64,000 nucleotides of DNA. Source: Metapseudomonas boanensis (GTDB taxonomy: Bacteria > Pseudomonadota > Gammaproteobacteria > Pseudomonadales > Pseudomonadaceae). The stretch spans positions 62,001 to 126,000 of the forward strand of contig NZ_JAGTIS010000009.1 in the NCBI RefSeq assembly GCF_018704125.1, given 5' to 3'. The position numbers and the translations under genes were made by a program. Of the stretch, positions 29,082 through 36,924 are shown piece by piece. The notes beneath the pieces are model-generated. The model searched no databases. It was not told the DNA's origin and was given only the letters and a program-made list of their open reading frames with translations. Position 1 is the first letter of the stretch. The number at the start of each line of letters is the position of its first letter.

Positions 29082-30770
29082 TTACAGCTGGCGAGCGGGG
29101 GTGCCGCGCACCGGCTTTTCACCGGCAACGTAGTACTTCGCCTTGCTGCGAGGCAGGCCTTTGCGGCCGCGGATTTTGTCGGCGATCTTCTCGGCGATCA
29201 TGATGGTGGTCGCGTTGAGGTTGCCGGTGATGATCTCCGGCATGATCGAGGCGTCCACCACACGCAGGCCTTCCATGCCGTGCACGCGGCCCTGGCCATC
29301 CACTACCGCCATGTCGTCGGTGCCCATCTTGCAGGAGCAGGAGGGGTGGAAGGCGGTTTCCGCGTGGGTGCGGATGAATTCGTCCAGTTCGGCATCGCTC
29401 TTGAGGTGTGCGCCCGGGCTAAGTTCGCGGCCACGGAACGGGTCCAGCGCAGGCTGCGCCATGATCTCGCGGGTGATGCGGATACCATCGCGGAATTCCT
29501 GCCAGTCCTGTTCGGCGGACATGTAGTTGAACAGGATGCTCGGGTGCTTGCGCGGGTCCTTGGACTTCAGGTGGATGCGACCACGGCTCGGTGAACGCAT
29601 GGAGCCCATGTGGGCCTGGAAGCCGTGCTCCTTCACCGCGTTGCTGCCGTTGTAATTGATCGCTACTGGCAGGAAGTGGTACTGGATGTTCGGCCACTTG
29701 AATTCCGGACGGGTGCGGATGAAACCGCCCGCTTCGAAATGGTTGCTGGCGCCCTTGCCACTGCCGAGGAACAGCCACTCGGCGCCGATCGCCGGCTGGT
29801 TCCACCATTGCAGGGCGGGATACATGGATACCGGCTCCTTGCAGGCATATTGCAGGTAGAGCTCCAGGTGGTCTTGCAGGTTGGCTCCGACGCCCGGCAG
29901 GTCATGCACTACGGGTATGTCGAGGTCGCGCAGCAGGGACGCCGGCCCCACGCCGGAGCGTTGCAGCAGTTGCGGCGAGGCAATGGCTCCGCTGCACACC
30001 AGCACTTCGCGGCGGGCATGCACGGTCACTGGGCTGTTGTCATCGCCCTTGAGGTAGGCGACGCCGATGGCACGCTTGCCGCTGAACAGCACGCGGTCAG
30101 CCTGGGCGTGGGTAACGATAGTCAGGTTGGAGCGGTTGCGCGCCTGGTCCAGGTAGCCGCGGGCGGTGCTGGAGCGGCGCCCCTTCGGGGTCACGGTCCG
30201 GTCCATGGGACCGAAGCCTTCCTGTTGGTAGCCATTCAGGTCTTCGGTGCGCGGATAACCGGCTTGCACGCCGGCCTCGATCATGGCGTGGAACAGTGGG
30301 TTGTTGCCGGCCTTGGGCGTGGTCACGCTCACCGGGCCTTCGCCGCCGTGATAGTCGTTCGGGCCGATGTCGCGGGTTTCCGCCTTGCGGAAGTAAGGCA
30401 AGCAGTCCAGGTAGGTCCAGTCTTCCAGGCCCGGCGCCTTGGCCCAGCTGTCGAAGTCCATGGCGTTGCCGCGGATGTAGCACATGCCGTTGATCAGCGA
30501 GGAGCCGCCCAGGCCCTTGCCACGGCCGCACTCCATGCGGCGGTTGTTCATGTAGGGCTCTGGATCCGTCTCGTAGGCCCAGTTGTAGCGGCGGCCCTGC
30601 AGTGGGTAGGCGAGGGCGGCGGGCATCTGGGTGCGGAAGTCCAGGCGATAGTCAGGGCCGCCAGCTTCGAGGAGCAGCACGCTGACGTCGGCGTCTTCGG
30701 TCAGGCGGGTGGCCAGGACGTTACCGGCAGAACCGGCGCCAACAATGATGTAATCGAATTCTTGTGACAT
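29082..30770 (-). CDS. betA: Choline dehydrogenase
   Basis: Membrane-associated GMC-family flavoenzyme of 562 residues that oxidises choline to betaine aldehyde. The FAD dinucleotide motif is [16 protein letters not shown] at the N-terminus, GMC signatures are [20 protein letters not shown]-like ([14 protein letters not shown]) and [16 protein letters not shown], and the active-site His is in [10 protein letters not shown] near the C-terminus. It is the last gene of betI-betB-betA. The 146 bp between betB and betA carry G/C-rich inverted repeats (CCCGGATTACGCCGGGCTACC type) that resemble extragenic repeats. A strong terminator follows. Confidence 0.96.
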
Positions 30771-30916: not shown

Positions 30917-32389
30917 TCAGAACACCGAGTAGTAGTCGCCCAATTCGACTTGGACAGACTTGATGCGGGTGTAGTGAGCCAGGGTGGTCAGACCGTTCTC
31001 GCGACCAACGCCGGACTGCTTGTAGCCACCGACGGGCATCTCGGCAGGCGACTCGCCCCAGGTGTTGATCCAGCAGATACCGGCTTCCAGCTTGTGGATC
31101 ACTCGGTGGGCGCGGGCCAGGTCGCGGGTGACGACGCCGGCGGCGAGGCCGTATTCGGTGTCGTTGGCGCGGCGAATGACTTCTTCCTCGGTGTCGTAGG
31201 CGAGGATGCTCATCACCGGCCCGAAGATTTCTTCGCGAACGATGGTCATGTCATCGGTGCAGTCGGTGAATACGGTCGCGGCGACGTAGGCGCCTTTGGC
31301 GAATTCGCCGTCGGTGACGCGCTCGCCGCCGATCAGCAGGCGCGCGCCTTCCTTGCGGCCGGCTTCGATATAGCCAAGCACGCTTTCCATGTGGGCGAAG
31401 CTGGTCAGCGGGCCGAAGTTGGTGTTGGCGTCTTCCGGGTTGCCCAGGCGAATGCGCTTCACGCGCTCGACCACCTTGGCTTCGAATTCGGCCTGCAGGG
31501 CGCGCGGGATGAATACGCGGGTGCCGTTGGTGCAGACCTGGCCGGAGCTGAAGAAGTTGGCCATGACGGCGATGTCGGCGGCACGGTCGAGGTCGGCGTC
31601 GTCGAAGATGATCAGTGGCGACTTGCCGCCCAGCTCCATGGTCACTTCCTTCAGCGAGGAACTGGAGGCGCTGGCCATAACCTTCTTGCCGGTGGAGGTG
31701 CCGCCGGTGAAGGAGATCTTCTCGATCAGCGGGTGCTCGGTCAGCCACTGGCCGACTTCACGGCCGCTGCCGGTGAGGACGTTGAACACACCGTCCGGCA
31801 CGCCGGCTTCGGTGTAGATTTCGGCTAGCTTCAGGGCGGTCAGCGGGGTGACTTCGCTGGGCTTGAAGATCATGGCGTTGCCGGCGGCCAGGGCCGGGGC
31901 GGATTTCCACATGGCGATCTGCACGGGGTAGTTCCAAGCGCCGATACCAGCGACCACGCCCAGGGGCTCGCGGCGGGTGTAGACGAAGCTGGTTTCGCGC
32001 AGCGGGATCTGCTCGCCTTCAATGGCAGGGATCAGGCCGGCGTAGTACTCGATCACGTCGGCGCCGGTCACGATGTCCACGGCGCGGGTTTCGGCCAGCG
32101 GCTTGCCGGTGTCCAGGGTCTCCAGCTCGGCCAGTTCGTCGTTGCGCTCACGGAGGATCTCCACTGCGCGGCGCAGGATGCGCGAGCGCTGCATGGCGGT
32201 CATCGCAGCCCAGACCTTCTGGCCTTCGACAGCGCTGGCGACGGCGCGCTCGACGTCGTCCTTGCCGGCACGCTGGACAGTGGCCAGCACTTCACCATTG
32301 GCTGGGTTCACGGTCTCGAAGCTGCTGCCGCTGGTGGAGTCGACGTAGCGGCCGCCAATGTAGAGCTTCTGTTCTTCGAATCGGGCCAT
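30917..32389 (-). CDS. betB: Betaine aldehyde dehydrogenase
   Basis: 490-residue NAD(P)-dependent aldehyde dehydrogenase converting betaine aldehyde to glycine betaine. Key segments are [33 protein letters not shown], the glycine motif [12 protein letters not shown], the general base in MELGGKSP and the catalytic Cys in [10 protein letters not shown]. The start at 32389 ([13 protein letters not shown]) matches the family; the 17 extra upstream codons do not. The gene starts 47 bp after betI on the same strand, so it is in the choline operon under BetI. Confidence 0.96.
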
Positions 32390-32436: not shown

Positions 32437-33030
32437 TCAAGCCGCCTGCTTGGCCAGTTGTTGATCAAGGAATTCGTAAGCGAGCCGGCGGGCCTGCTCA
32501 GTATCGAAGGCCTCTCCGGACAGCGCGCCGCGCAGCCACAGGCCGTCGATCAGCGCAGCCAGGCCACGAGCGGCGGTACGGGCGCTTTCTACGTCGAGCT
32601 CGCGGCGGAACTGCCAGCAGAGATTCGAGTAGAGGCGGAGGTCGTTGATGCGCTGCAAACGGCGCAGCGATGGCTGGTGCATGCTGCTGGCCCAGAACGC
32701 CAGCCAGGTCTTCATGGCCGGGCCGTTGACCTGGGTTTCGTCGAAGTTGCCGTCGATGATCGAACGCAAATAGCCGCGCGGGGATTTATCGCGCATGGCT
32801 TCGCGGCGCTTGCGCACCGCCTCCTGCAAGTCGTTCATGAGGAAGCGCATGGTGGCTTCCAGCAGGCCGTTCTTGTCCTGGAAATAGTGGCTGATGATGC
32901 CGTTGGAGACCCCCGCCAGGCGGGCGATGTAGGAAATGCTGGCGTCACTCATCCCAACCTGGTCGACGGCCTCGAGGGTCGCGTGGATCAGCTGGGTGCG
33001 GCGCAGTGGCTGCATTCCAATCTTGGGCAT
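32437..33030 (-). CDS. betI: Choline-responsive repressor BetI
   Basis: 197-residue TetR-family repressor of the betIBA and betT promoters, released by choline. The N-terminal HTH is [20 protein letters not shown] followed by recognition helix [11 protein letters not shown]; the middle contains [20 protein letters not shown], which is typical of BetI. It is first in the leftward betIBA group. A perfect palindrome TTGAACGTTCAA lies 60 bp upstream in the gap shared with betT. A close paralog lies beyond betT at 35073-35678, with roughly three quarters identical residues by my hand count. Confidence 0.95.
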
Positions 33031-33089
33031 GGGGGCTCCTCCTCTCCGGCGTATCCGGGTGGGTTGAAATCCAGCCTACTTTATTTTTA

Positions 33090-33101
33090 TTGAACGTTCA
33101 A
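33090..33101. promoter_or_regulatory. BetI operator TTGAACGTTCAA
   Basis: A 12-bp perfect palindrome within an A+T-rich stretch (TTATTTTTATTGAACG) between the divergent betI and betT genes. BetI sites of Pseudomonas lie in this position. It is 60 bp from betI and 150 bp from betT. Confidence 0.8.
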
Positions 33102-33251
33102 ACAACAAAGAATAAGCTGCGCACCATGGAACGGGATGCGGCAGTTCGCCGCACCTTTTTCAGGCCATCGACCTGACCTCGGACGGTGGTGTGGGACTGT
33201 CGTTGCGCCCAACAGGCGCCTGCTTTCACTGCCCCTGGAGCCAATCTCCAA

Positions 33252-34847
33252 ATGAGTACTGCTTCTCCAACAACAAAAAGCCACGGGAAGGTGCGCCTGA
33301 ATCCGGTCGTGTTCTTCGGGTCCACTGCGCTGATCGTGCTTCTCACGGTTGCCTTGATCGCATTCCCCGACAGCGCAGGTGCCTGGCTCGGCCAGGCCCA
33401 GAGCTGGCTGTCGCGCAGCTTCGGCTGGTACTACATGCTGGCCATCGGCGCTTATCTGTTCTTCGTGCTTTACGTGGCGTTCTCCCGCTACGGCCATCTG
33501 CGCCTGGGTGCCGATGACGACAGGCCCGACTTCAGTTACGGCGCCTGGGCCGGCATGCTGTTCTCCTCCGGGATCGGCATTTCGCTGCTCTATTTCGCCG
33601 CCTCCGAGCCCATCGACCACCTCTACAACCCGCCGGAAGGCGAGCCGGGCAGCCAGTCCGCTGCGCGCCAGGCGCTGCAGCTGACTTTCCTGCACTGGGG
33701 CGTACACGGCTGGGCGATCTATGCGCTGGTGGGCCTGGCGGTCGGCTATTTCGCCTATCGCCACAAACAGCCGCTGGCCCTGCGTTCAGCGCTCTATCCG
33801 CTGTTCGGCGAGCGCCTGATGAAGGGCTCAGTGGGTAACGCGGTGGATTGCTTTGGCATCTTCGTGACCCTGCTGGGCCTGGTGACCAACCTCGGTATCG
33901 GTTCCCTGCAGGTCTCCTCCGGCCTTGAGTACCTGTTCGGCTTTCCGCACAGCCAGGGCGCGCTGTTGTCGGTGATCCTCGTGATGAGCGCGGTGGCCAC
34001 CCTGGCTGCGGTGTCCGGCATCGAGAAGGGCATCCGTCGCCTGTCGAACCTGAACATCATTCTGTTCAGCGGTCTGCTGGTGTTCGTGCTGCTCGCGGGG
34101 GATACCCTGCACCTGCTCAACGGTTTCGTACAGAACCTGGGCGACTACCTCAACGGCCTGGTGCTGAAGACCTTCGACCTCTACGTCTATACCGGCCAGT
34201 CCGGCAAGAGCGAAGAGTGGATGGGCCTGTGGACCCTGTTCTACTGGGCGTGGTGGATTTCCTGGGCCCCCTTCGTGGGCATGTTCGTGGCCCGTATCTC
34301 GCGTGGTCGTACCGTGCGCGAGCTGGTGTGTGGTGTACTGCTGATCCCGCTGGGCTTCACCCTGGCCTGGCTGTCGGTGTTCGGCAACAGCGCCCTGGAG
34401 CTGGTGATGAACCAGAACGCGGCAGATCTTGGCAAGGCGGCGCTGGAACAGCCGGCGATGTCGATCTACCTGCTTCTGGAGCATTACCCCTGGTCCAAGG
34501 TGGTGATCGGCCTCTCGATCTGCGTCGGCTTCGTGCTCTTCCTCACTCCGGCTGACTCCGGCTCGGTGATGCTGGCCAACCTCTCTCGTGAGGAGGGCGA
34601 TCTCGACGAAGACGCGCCGAACTGGCTGCGGATCTTCTGGTCCGCGCTGGTGACCCTGGTGACCATCGGCCTGTTGTTCGCCGGTAACTTCACCGCCATG
34701 CAGACCGTGGTGGTGTTGGCGGGGCTGCCGTTCTCGGTTGTGCTGTTGCTGTATATGTTCGCCCTGCTCAAGGCGATGAAGGCCGACCTGGCGGCGACCC
34801 AGCCGGTCCCGACGGTGCGGCCAGCACTGCGTGGCGAAGCGGCCTGA
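33252..34847 (+). CDS. betT: BCCT-family choline transporter
   Basis: 531-residue secondary transporter with about 12 membrane helices that imports choline for the Bet enzymes. The BCCT signature WAWWISWAPFVGMFVARISR (20 residues) is present, as are the N-terminal NPVVFFGSTALIVLLTVAL helix and the GIGSLQVSSGLEYL segment. The start at 33252 (MSTASPTTKSHGKV) was chosen; the frame open before it is intergenic. The C-terminal tail after the last helix is short (about 25 residues), unlike osmoregulated BetT forms with a long cytoplasmic tail, which suggests a catabolic rather than osmotic role; this is inference. Divergent from betIBA and shares the BetI operator. Confidence 0.94.
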   Translation: MSTASPTTKSHGKVRLNPVVFFGSTALIVLLTVALIAFPDSAGAWLGQAQSWLSRSFGWYYMLAIGAYLFFVLYVAFSRYGHLRLGADDDRPDFSYGAWAGMLFSSGIGISLLYFAASEPIDHLYNPPEGEPGSQSAARQALQLTFLHWGVHGWAIYALVGLAVGYFAYRHKQPLALRSALYPLFGERLMKGSVGNAVDCFGIFVTLLGLVTNLGIGSLQVSSGLEYLFGFPHSQGALLSVILVMSAVATLAAVSGIEKGIRRLSNLNIILFSGLLVFVLLAGDTLHLLNGFVQNLGDYLNGLVLKTFDLYVYTGQSGKSEEWMGLWTLFYWAWWISWAPFVGMFVARISRGRTVRELVCGVLLIPLGFTLAWLSVFGNSALELVMNQNAADLGKAALEQPAMSIYLLLEHYPWSKVVIGLSICVGFVLFLTPADSGSVMLANLSREEGDLDEDAPNWLRIFWSALVTLVTIGLLFAGNFTAMQTVVVLAGLPFSVVLLLYMFALLKAMKADLAATQPVPTVRPALRGEAA

Positions 34848-34862
34848 TCCTTTGCCAGTGGT

Positions 34863-34900
34863 AACGAAAAAGCCCAGTCCAGTGACTGGGCTTTTTCGTT
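34863..34900. terminator. Bidirectional terminator between betT and betI2
   Basis: AACGAAAAAGCCCAGTC, CAGT loop, GACTGGGCTTTTTCGTT: 17-bp perfect stem with A-run and T-run on opposite sides. It serves the rightward betT and could serve the leftward betI2 gene. Confidence 0.9.
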
Positions 34901-35072
34901 TCGCATGGGTAGGACGGGTCAGGCAGCACTCCGGTGAGCGCAGCGATACTCAACGAAGGGAATTGGCAGCTGCTTGATGGGTATCGCAGATGTCCGGCCA
35001 GGATGATCATGGGCAAACCCTTGCCTACGTGTCCCGGCAATCGTTATCTAGCTGTCCTGGCAGCACACAGGC

Positions 35073-35678
35073 TCAACCCATCCTGCGGGGTGCTGCCTTG
35101 GCCAACTGCAGGTCGAGGTATTCGAAGGCGATCCGCAGGGCCTGCTCGGTTTGGAACGCATCGCCAGATAGCGCACTTCGCAGCCACAGGCCGTCGATCA
35201 GCGCGGCCATGCCCCGCGCCGCGGCGCGGGCCTCGTCGAGCGGCAGTACACGGCGGAACTCACAGCAGAGATTGGAGTAAAGCCGGTGGTCGTTGATCCG
35301 CTGCAAGCGGCGCAGTGCCGGCTGGTGCATGCTGCTGGCCCAGAACGCCAGCCAGGTTTTCATGGCCGGGCCACTGACCTGGCTGTCATCGAAGTTGCCT
35401 TCAACGATGGCCCGCAGCTGCGCACGTGGGCTATCGTCCCGCAGCCTGGTGCGACGCTGGCGCACCGCACTGCTGAGGGCGGCCATCAGGTGACGCATTG
35501 TGGCTTCCAGCAGGCCGTTCTTGTCCCGGAAGTAGTGGCTGATGATGCCGTTGGAAACGCCGGCGAGACGGGCGATGTAGGCGATGCTGGCATCGCTCAT
35601 GCCGACCTGGTCGACGGCCTCGAGGGTGGCCTGGATCAACTGCGAACGGCGGATCGGCTGCATTCCGACCTTGGGCAT
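35073..35678 (-). CDS. BetI-like TetR repressor, second copy
   Basis: 201 residues, colinear with BetI over its length. The DNA-binding part (residues 1-62) differs from BetI at only six places, and the recognition helix [11 protein letters not shown] is identical; differences gather at about residues 63-103 and near the C-terminus, where ligand specificity would lie. A perfect 20-bp palindrome containing TTGATCGATCAA lies 54 bp upstream. It sits between betT and aguA, on the same strand as aguA. It may regulate itself, the choline genes, or the agmatine genes; none is proven. It probably arose by duplication of betI. Confidence 0.9.
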
Positions 35679-35731
35679 CAGGGATTTCCACCATGCTCTG
35701 CGGATTTGGGAGGGCGCAGTCTAGGGGGTAT

Positions 35732-35751
35732 TCGATTGATCGATCAATCGA
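35732..35751. promoter_or_regulatory. 20-bp perfect palindrome, probable BetI2 operator
   Basis: TCGATTGATCGATCAATCGA, with core TTGATCGATCAA at 35736-35747, which matches the BetI site TTGAACGTTCAA at 10 of 12 positions. A further partial copy GATTGATCGATC follows at 35755-35766. It lies between betI2 and aguA. Confidence 0.7.
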
Positions 35752-35817
35752 TGGGATTGATCGATCCTGGTCGGGCCAACCCCCTCGCGTTAACGAAGGG
35801 GCTACCGTCAGCTTCGC

Positions 35818-36924
35818 TCAGCGCTGTTGCGGCGCCGGTTGCTGCTGGGTGATGCAGTGGATGTTACCGCCGCCGAGGAGGATCTCCCGGCCTGGCACCA
35901 TGACCACTTCATGCTCCGGGAACACGCGCGCGAGGATCGCCTCGGCCGTGGCGTCCTTCGCATCGTCGAACTTCGGCGCGATGATGCCGCCGTTGACGAT
36001 CAGGAAGTTGACGTAGGATCCGGCAAGGCGGATCGACGGATCGCGCTCCTGGGTGCCTTCCACCAGATCGACGCCCGCGCATTCTTCCTCGGTGGCGTAG
36101 ATCGGGCCTGGAATTGGCATCTTGTGCACGACCAGCTGGCGGCCCTTGGCGTCGCGGGCGCTTTCCAGCACCTTCATCGCTGCCTGGCAACGCGGGTAGT
36201 TCGGGTCCTGCGGGTCGTCGGTCCAGGCCAGCAGCACTTCACCCGGGCGAACGTAGCAGCAGAAGTTGTCCACATGGCCGTCGGTCTCGTCGTTATACAG
36301 ACCGTCCGGCAGCCAGATGATGGTGTCTACCGCCAGGTGCTCGCGCAGCACTGCCTCGATCTGCTCGCGGTCGAGGTGCGGGTTGCGATTCTTGTTCAGC
36401 AGGCATTCTTCAGTGGTGATCAGCGTGCCTTCGCCATCCACGTGGATGGAGCCGCCTTCCAGCACGAAGCCGTCGGTGCGGTAGCGCTTGCTGTGCTCGA
36501 TCTCGAGGACCTTGCGCGCCACCTGGTCATCGCGGTTCCAGGGGAAGTAGAGGCCGCCGTCGAAGCCGCCCCAGGCGTTGAAGGTCCAGTCCACGCCACG
36601 TACGTCACCCTGGCCATTGACCACGAAGGTCGGGCCGGTGTCGCGCACCCAGGCGTCGTCGGTGCTGATTTCCACCACGCGGATGTTCGGCTCGTCCAGG
36701 CGGGCGCGGGCGTTCTCGTACTGGCCGGCGGAGACGCAAACGGTCACCGGCTCGAAGCGTGCGATGGCCTTGGCCACAGCGGTGAAGGCTTCCTGCGCGG
36801 GCTTGCCGCCCAGGCGCCAGTTATCCGGCCGCTCGGGCCAGACCATCCAGGTCTGGCTGTGCGTTTCCCACTCGGCAGGCATGCGGAAGCCGTCGTCGCG
36901 CGGGAGGCTGTTCAGTGTGTTCAT
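35818..36924 (-). CDS. aguA: Agmatine deiminase
   Basis: 368-residue enzyme hydrolysing agmatine to N-carbamoylputrescine and ammonia. The catalytic nucleophile is C357 in [13 protein letters not shown] near the C-terminus, and the family motifs [37 protein letters not shown] and DGHVDNF are all present. It follows aguB with an 89-bp gap and ends 140 bp from betI2. With aguB it supplies putrescine to the spu pathway. Regulation by AguR is expected because aguR lies upstream of aguB. Confidence 0.96.

Follow-up and report, generated by a model that had tools for sequence, protein, structure and literature searches.

Two BetI-type repressors and their look-alike predicted operator boxes at the choline locus of Metapseudomonas boanensis

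The 64-kb stretch of the Metapseudomonas boanensis genome analyzed here (the window) carries two genes for BetI, the TetR-type repressor of betIBA and betT. One of these (betI1) occupies the betI-betB-betA position and the other (betI2) lies across the choline transporter gene betT, each with a palindromic box upstream (Table 1). The reading we favor, with a probability of about 0.6, is that the two BetI repressors share one operator code and are both choline-responsive, with BetI1 adding feedback inside betIBA. Among the species of the genus that have both genes, the inherited betI is probably not the one found at the canonical position, and the annotation there would need correcting. The conserved two-repressor arrangement is real, and the machinery itself is known: the proteins share models, neighbors, palindrome and core residues with characterized BetI of Escherichia coli and Pseudomonas (TIGR03384/NF001978). 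The departure from known BetI is that the locus has two copies, of which one lies within the betB leader and the other on the far side of betT.

The two BetI proteins and their descent

Both proteins score above cut-off on each of the two NCBIfam equivalog models for BetI, with BetI2 slightly ahead of BetI1 on each (PRK00767.1: 300.4 and 289.7 bits, cut-off 118; TIGR03384: 257.5 and 246.0 bits, cut-off 201.3). BLASTP aligns the pair with 152 of 196 residues identical (78%), against roughly 150 of 197 by hand count in a preliminary description of the window, which had correctly located the two reading frames flanking betT. The 11-residue recognition segment is the same in BetI1 and BetI2, as that description had stated for the recognition helices, and its claim that the differences gather in the ligand domain is borne out by 54 of 60 identical residues in the DNA-binding domain (residues 1–60) versus 98 of 136 in residues 61–196. 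The two genes are alike in GC fraction (0.635 for betI1 and 0.655 for betI2). The predicted structure of BetI1 (mean predicted local distance difference test score 80.8) has nine helices and a TetR fold; among 50 of its 888 PDB matches, titles name TetR-type or putative regulators where stated, and the choline complex 4kwa is one of these 50.

Across 103 BetIs, that of E. coli among them, residues F96, D97, W109, F112, W113, D162, and W165 hardly vary, and retention of these conserved aromatic and acidic residues in both copies favors, but does not prove, a shared ligand. At 15 diagnostic positions BetI1 has fixed or nearly fixed residues that are seldom seen in BetI2 or in other BetIs (12, 33, 67, 69, 74, 79, 84, 86, 87, 90, 131, 139, 146, 149, and 187). 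Eight of the 15 lie within residues 67–90, a stretch that on the predicted fold runs from the last part of helix 4 through the link into helix 5; positions 149 and 187 fall in predicted helices 8–9, which we take to be the usual TetR dimer interface, and 146 adjoins helix 8. BetI2 differs from other BetIs at one diagnostic position (176), at a looser threshold than that used for BetI1. With one such difference in BetI2 versus 15 in BetI1, and the aromatics kept in both, the different ligand earlier suggested for BetI2 is not supported; if one copy changed its response, BetI1 is the more likely one, and its diagnostic changes may have altered that response. Both betI genes look to be under constraint in the 14 genomes that have the pair, with median ratios of nonsynonymous to synonymous substitution rates (dN/dS) of 0.119 and 0.117, next to 0.094 for BetB and 0.101 for BetT. 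The dN of BetI1 is lower than that of BetI2 in 77 of 91 genome pairs, and the median dS of BetI1 is also lower.

A BetI search at E 1e-60 across 18 species of the window's genus returned two BetIs in 14 species and one in four. The betI2 place across betT is occupied in all 18, with BetI2 free of internal stops in each, and the BetI missing in the four is the one at the betI1 place. In a family-wide sample of 148 genomes (match threshold 1e-70), 82 genomes matched: all 18 from the genus and, with a single BetI apiece, 64 from outside it. Outside the genus, Pseudomonas sp. RIT-PI-AD (L034) and P. duriflava (L070) have the gene order betI-betT-betB-betA and, by genome search, one BetI per genome. 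In BetI trees, BetI1 forms a separate clade of 14 rows with 100/100 support and a long stem (0.39 in an unrooted tree of 98 rows and 0.36 in a rooted tree of 103 rows). BetI2 splits into groups of 14 and four, both placed among ordinary BetIs from other Pseudomonas; the backbone near BetI1 is weak (85/79 in the 103-row tree). L013–L016 were omitted from the BetI trees as repeats of genomes already included; also omitted were two in three of L054–L092 from the 98-row tree and, from the 103-row tree, four in five of L051–L092 plus L157–L159, L161, and L162. The outgroup consisted of six rows, one of them of the same family (L169, placed by choice), and included several long branches. In a tree of BetB, BetT, and BetA (23 rows, with BetT in 21), the 14 two-BetI species group together (92/99; 96% of 200 bootstrap trees), and the four single-BetI species and L034/L070 fall outside this group, such that one gain of betI1 explains the grouping without losses. 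BetI2 had been described as the duplicate; trees and gene order instead identify BetI2 as inherited and BetI1 as the addition.

The site of the addition is visible in alignments of the two states. The promoter core, 46 bases around box1, is almost unchanged with and without betI1 (6 single-BetI and 5 two-BetI loci aligned, L070 being the most divergent), and the betB leader common to both states reads CGCCTTGCG ... ACCT-(A)GAGAGGAC ... ATGGCCCGATTC. This leader was found by script in the four single-BetI and 13 two-BetI genomes of the genus, with a variant in the remaining two-BetI genome, L134, and it differs in L034. The shared promoter core and betB leader indicate that betI1 lies within the leader, downstream of the old promoter and ahead of the ribosome-binding region of betB. 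Among 276 sampled genomes of the class (1e-60), only two beyond the window's own matched, at 57 and 58% identity, and the top-ranked plasmid record match stood at 62.5%. In approximately unbiased (AU) tests, from which L170 and L171 were removed, grouping BetI1 with BetI2 of all 18 species gave p 0.70 with a quick tree and 0.17 with a careful one, grouping it with BetI2 of the 14 species gave p 0.0465, grouping it with 12 BetIs of the citronellolis-nitroreducens kind gave p 0.30, and treating the 18 BetI2 as one clade gave p 0.75. BetI1 may have arisen by duplication early in the genus or by transfer from a related Pseudomonas. Gene conversion between the copies is not supported in the window genome, where third-position identity within the genome is about that between genomes, with one block lower; the L149 row, being out of register, was excluded from this comparison. 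A 63-base identical stretch occurs in L134.

Predicted operator boxes and promoters

The palindromes reported upstream of the two genes, TTGAACGTTCAA (box1) and TTGATCGATCAA (box2), are present as described and are the only two matches to TTGANCGNTCAA in the 64 kb, where 0.04 would be expected; none of 100 shuffles contained two matches. Box1 occurs in 18 of 18 species, as TTGAACGTTCAA in 11 and as TTGATCGTTCAA or its complement in seven. Box2 is TTGATCGATCAA in 17 species and TTGATTGATCAA in one, a single-BetI species. Given this conservation in relatives, the predicted operators are much more than chance. All four single-BetI species keep both boxes (one with the variant box2), which suggests that one BetI serves both, and L034 and L070 have box1 beside betB plus a box before their sole betI.

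Box variation was surveyed further in 76 named stretches (L017–L092), with one betI per stretch; L018, L019, L034, and L070 were searched genome-wide. TTGA-N4-TCAA was found within 150 bp before betI in 66 of the 76, at 59 to 87 bp, with centers AACGTT (38), ATCGTT (23, mixed), ATCGAT (2), and AGCGTT (2), and two overlapping variants at one locus. All 22 other strict matches in the 781,206 bases lie 48 to 266 bp before betB. As a related observation, 20 of the 76 stretches (within L017–L062, with L034 and L070 apart) have a box 48 to 144 bp before betB that is separate from the betI box; such a separate betB box is a possible forerunner of the split arrangement. In L025, L032, and L033, a longer palindrome, TTGATCGAACGATCAA, replaces the missing strict box before betI.

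Box1 and box2 look like one operator code rather than two. A different specificity of the two boxes is not favored, both types being present in single-BetI genomes and the A/T base varying, often within one box, among stretches with one betI. Cross-talk between the repressors, as initially suggested, is likewise rendered plausible, though indirectly, by boxes that lie within the natural variation of one BetI box and by single-BetI genomes that carry both. In the window, half of each box stands where a −35 element would be expected, 17 or 18 nt from TAGGCT or TAGACT, and promoters overlapping the boxes are proposed from this conservation.

In 8 of 18 species a BetI-type box is also present upstream of gbdR (NCBIfam GbdR), which encodes the activator of glycine betaine catabolism. 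The box is strict, TTGAACGATCAA, in seven of these, and in the window genome has one changed base (TTGAACGCTCAA, contig C17:411–422). The gbdR box adjoins a conserved GGCAC-N5-TTGC stretch, which we take to resemble a sigma-54 promoter. For P. aeruginosa gbdR, sigma-54 activation and BetI repression are stated in a review (PMC10418997), and BetI control of this gene is attributed to Sanchez et al. 2017 in PMC10418997 and PMC13415123. This published repression lends outside support to the box being that of BetI. A conserved BetI site upstream of betT1 is likewise noted for P. synxantha in PMC12442406.

Proposed working and alternatives

Paralogous repressors sharing an operator are expected to interfere unless target or signal diverges. 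In the working proposed here, BetI2 would be the ancestral repressor, located behind box2 and repressing itself there; in species without BetI1 it would also have to repress at box1, that is, betBA and the divergent betT. BetI1, a diverged BetI, would have been inserted a single time, in the common ancestor of the 14 species, downstream of the box1 promoter and ahead of the ribosome-binding region of betB. Produced along with BetB and BetA under control of the same box, it would provide the operon with negative feedback. Both proteins would most likely bind both boxes, possibly as mixed dimers, and release with choline, a suggestion grounded in the nearly identical DNA-binding domains and the same conserved aromatics; the clustered BetI1 changes around helices 4–5 would tune affinity or choline coupling. 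What the analysis shows directly is the genes, the boxes, conservation, gene order, and a tree requiring a single gain; repression, cross-binding, choline as ligand, and feedback are inferred.

Several observations weigh against this shared-code proposal. The 15 diagnostic changes of BetI1 could reflect an altered ligand or choice of partner, and three shifts (27, 70, and 74) are particular to BetI2 in the 14 two-BetI species. The tree pointing to one gain draws its genes from this very locus, so it does not stand as an independent species tree, and its key branch falls short of the 95 bootstrap mark. Strict boxes before betI are absent in 10 of the 76 stretches, indicating that the box model is incomplete, and before gbdR the box is degenerated in 10 of the 18 species, all four single-BetI species included. 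A consensus promoter scan returned neither proposed promoter and no sigma-70-type site. Finally, the two BetIs of Ruegeria pomeroyi do not regulate each other's targets, according to PMC12442346.

That system is the closest published likeness, with two BetIs in a split bet cluster. The same report (Liu et al. 2025, PMC12442346) describes the Ruegeria proteins as 33.5% identical, both answering choline and with separate targets; it places both types together in one bacterium in Alphaproteobacteria only, and gives one betI for the other characterized bet clusters. As described there, Ruegeria BetI2 has non-consensus boxes (two overlapping) and its gene is divergent from betTA. In contrast, the pair in the window is 78% identical, where the two deep Ruegeria clades share about 33%, a single consensus covers both boxes, and betT runs divergently from betI1 but toward betI2; the window pair is not of the Ruegeria type. 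A literature search, with subscription literature mostly outside its scope, found no two-BetI system for Pseudomonas among the papers listed.

An insulated pair functioning as in Ruegeria is possible but doubtful. Both proteins would sense choline, BetI1 would have taken box1 (betI1BA and betT), and BetI2 would be left in control of its own gene or of a few remote ones; mixed dimers would not form. The published case of two BetIs with one effector and separate targets (PMC12442346) offers a precedent, and the lower dN of BetI1 in 77 of 91 pairs is what might be seen if BetI1 held the main job. However, the recognition segments are identical and 54 of 60 DNA-binding-domain residues are shared, both box types co-occur in single-BetI genomes, and of the 15 diagnostic positions two lie in predicted helices 8–9 and one beside helix 8.

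It is unlikely, on our assessment, that BetI1, once in the operon, changed its ligand response and kept the DNA specificity of BetI, with homo- and heterodimers competing for the same boxes and integrating two signals, or one signal at two thresholds, at betIBA, betT, and, in a subset of species, gbdR. If true, this would amount to a natural gate reading two inputs at a single operator, arisen once and comparable with sister species that lack BetI1. Less likely still is the gain by BetI1 of a new or second ligand (e.g., betaine aldehyde, carnitine, or another quaternary amine), the shared boxes then reading two signals. A stem of 0.36–0.39 and the 15 fixed or nearly fixed changes, eight of them at 67–90, followed by constraint, are consistent with such a gain, but the ligand domain retains its conserved aromatic and acidic residues, and no structure places the changed positions in contact with ligand. 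Redundancy on its way to loss, with BetI1 having replaced a decaying BetI2, is very improbable: BetI2 has the higher dN in most of the 91 pairs, but it has no internal stop in 18 of 18 species, its box is kept, and median dN/dS is equal since its dS is higher too.

The preliminary description had linked betI2 to neighboring agmatine genes. In the window, aguA and aguB sit upstream of betI2, which thus lies between betT and aguA. The aguA gene is present in all 18 species and beside betI2 only in the window genome; in the other 17 it is 174 to 188 kb away (10 species), farther along the contig that holds betI2 (2), or on a different contig (5). Box2 is downstream of the aguA stop codon and so cannot be an operator of the agu genes, and no further box with up to two mismatches was found near agu genes within the window. 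The agmatine neighbors are accidental and peculiar to one genome. That BetI2 is a duplicate answering a ligand of these agmatine/putrescine genes is scarcely credible, the adjacency in the window being set against aguA lying elsewhere in 17 of 17 species, a standard BetI2 with one diagnostic change, and no other agu box.

With locus and promoter core in common, the four species that have one BetI and both boxes and the 14 that have two BetIs provide what look like before and after states within one genus. What a new repressor copy costs, what it brings, and how it is insulated thereby become directly testable, giving the locus moderate value as a natural experiment in repressor duplication, albeit one on a variation of a well-known switch.

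Locus features and minor observations

Table 1 Features of the bet locus, in window coordinates
Feature	Position	Strand	Description and basis
betI1	32437..33030	-	BetI-type TetR repressor in the betI-betB-betA position, probably the extra, diverged copy; NCBIfam BetI models, species distribution, tree
box1 TTGAACGTTCAA	33090..33101	.	Predicted BetI operator, betT / betI1-betB-betA intergenic; conservation
Proposed betI1-betB-betA promoter	33073..33101	-	TTGAAC (half of box1), 17 nt, TAGGCT; conserved in 14/14 two-BetI genomes and 6 single-BetI / 5 two-BetI loci
betT	33252..34847	+	BCCT-family choline transporter; NCBIfam; divergent from betI1, convergent with betI2
betI2	35073..35678	-	Genus-wide BetI, probably the inherited copy; NCBIfam, distribution, trees
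box2 TTGATCGATCAA	35736..35747	.	Predicted operator of betI2 itself; strict in 17/18 species
Proposed betI2 promoter	35718..35747	-	TTGATC (half of box2), 18 nt, TAGACT; TAGACT invariant in 18/18 genomes
Degenerate second box copy TTGATCGATCCT	35757..35768	.	Adjoins box2; not kept as a palindrome in the 18-genome alignment
betB	30917..32389	-	Betaine aldehyde dehydrogenase, NCBIfam BADH; leader abuts betI1
betA	29082..30770	-	Choline dehydrogenase; NCBIfam betA, 928.6 bits

The BetI pair is linked to betA, betB, and betT. The betT product scores 505 bits on the NCBIfam BCCT model TIGR00842, above cut-off, and 600.4 bits on the BetT model PRK09928, below its cut-off of 695. At window positions 35678–36924 betI2 abuts aguA, and gbdR is on another contig of this genome (G000:C17:411–1649); in G002, G010, and G015, by contrast, gbdR is reached about 8 kb past betI2, with aguA at a distance of about 180 kb. 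Just upstream of betI2, the window genome has either a rearrangement breakpoint or a misjoin. A second AguA homolog, 52 to 53% identical, occurs in the same four species that lack betI1 (G003:C16:73386, G007:C146:20002, G008:C1:224197, and G017:C1:4547295).

A third TTGATCGATCAA in the window genome (C5:85756; L008:1501–1512) was not taken as a further target, since it lies inside a 145-codon frame that appears MarR-like by eye. Across the genus, ten further matches outside bet and gbdR were inspected, comprising three pairs shared between species and four unshared matches. One pair is TTGATCGATCAA about 95 bp before a sulfatase-domain gene in related species (L213:2029 in G002 and L216:1996 in G012), the product of which has an EptA/B-like N-terminal match just under cut-off. 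Another pair (G007 and G008) lies within a 1239-codon frame. These two pairs and the four unshared boxes may be chance matches or remote targets. In the remaining pair, from single-BetI species, the box stands directly before the start of a chalcone/stilbene synthase-domain gene (L205:3042 in G003 and L208:3017 in G017).

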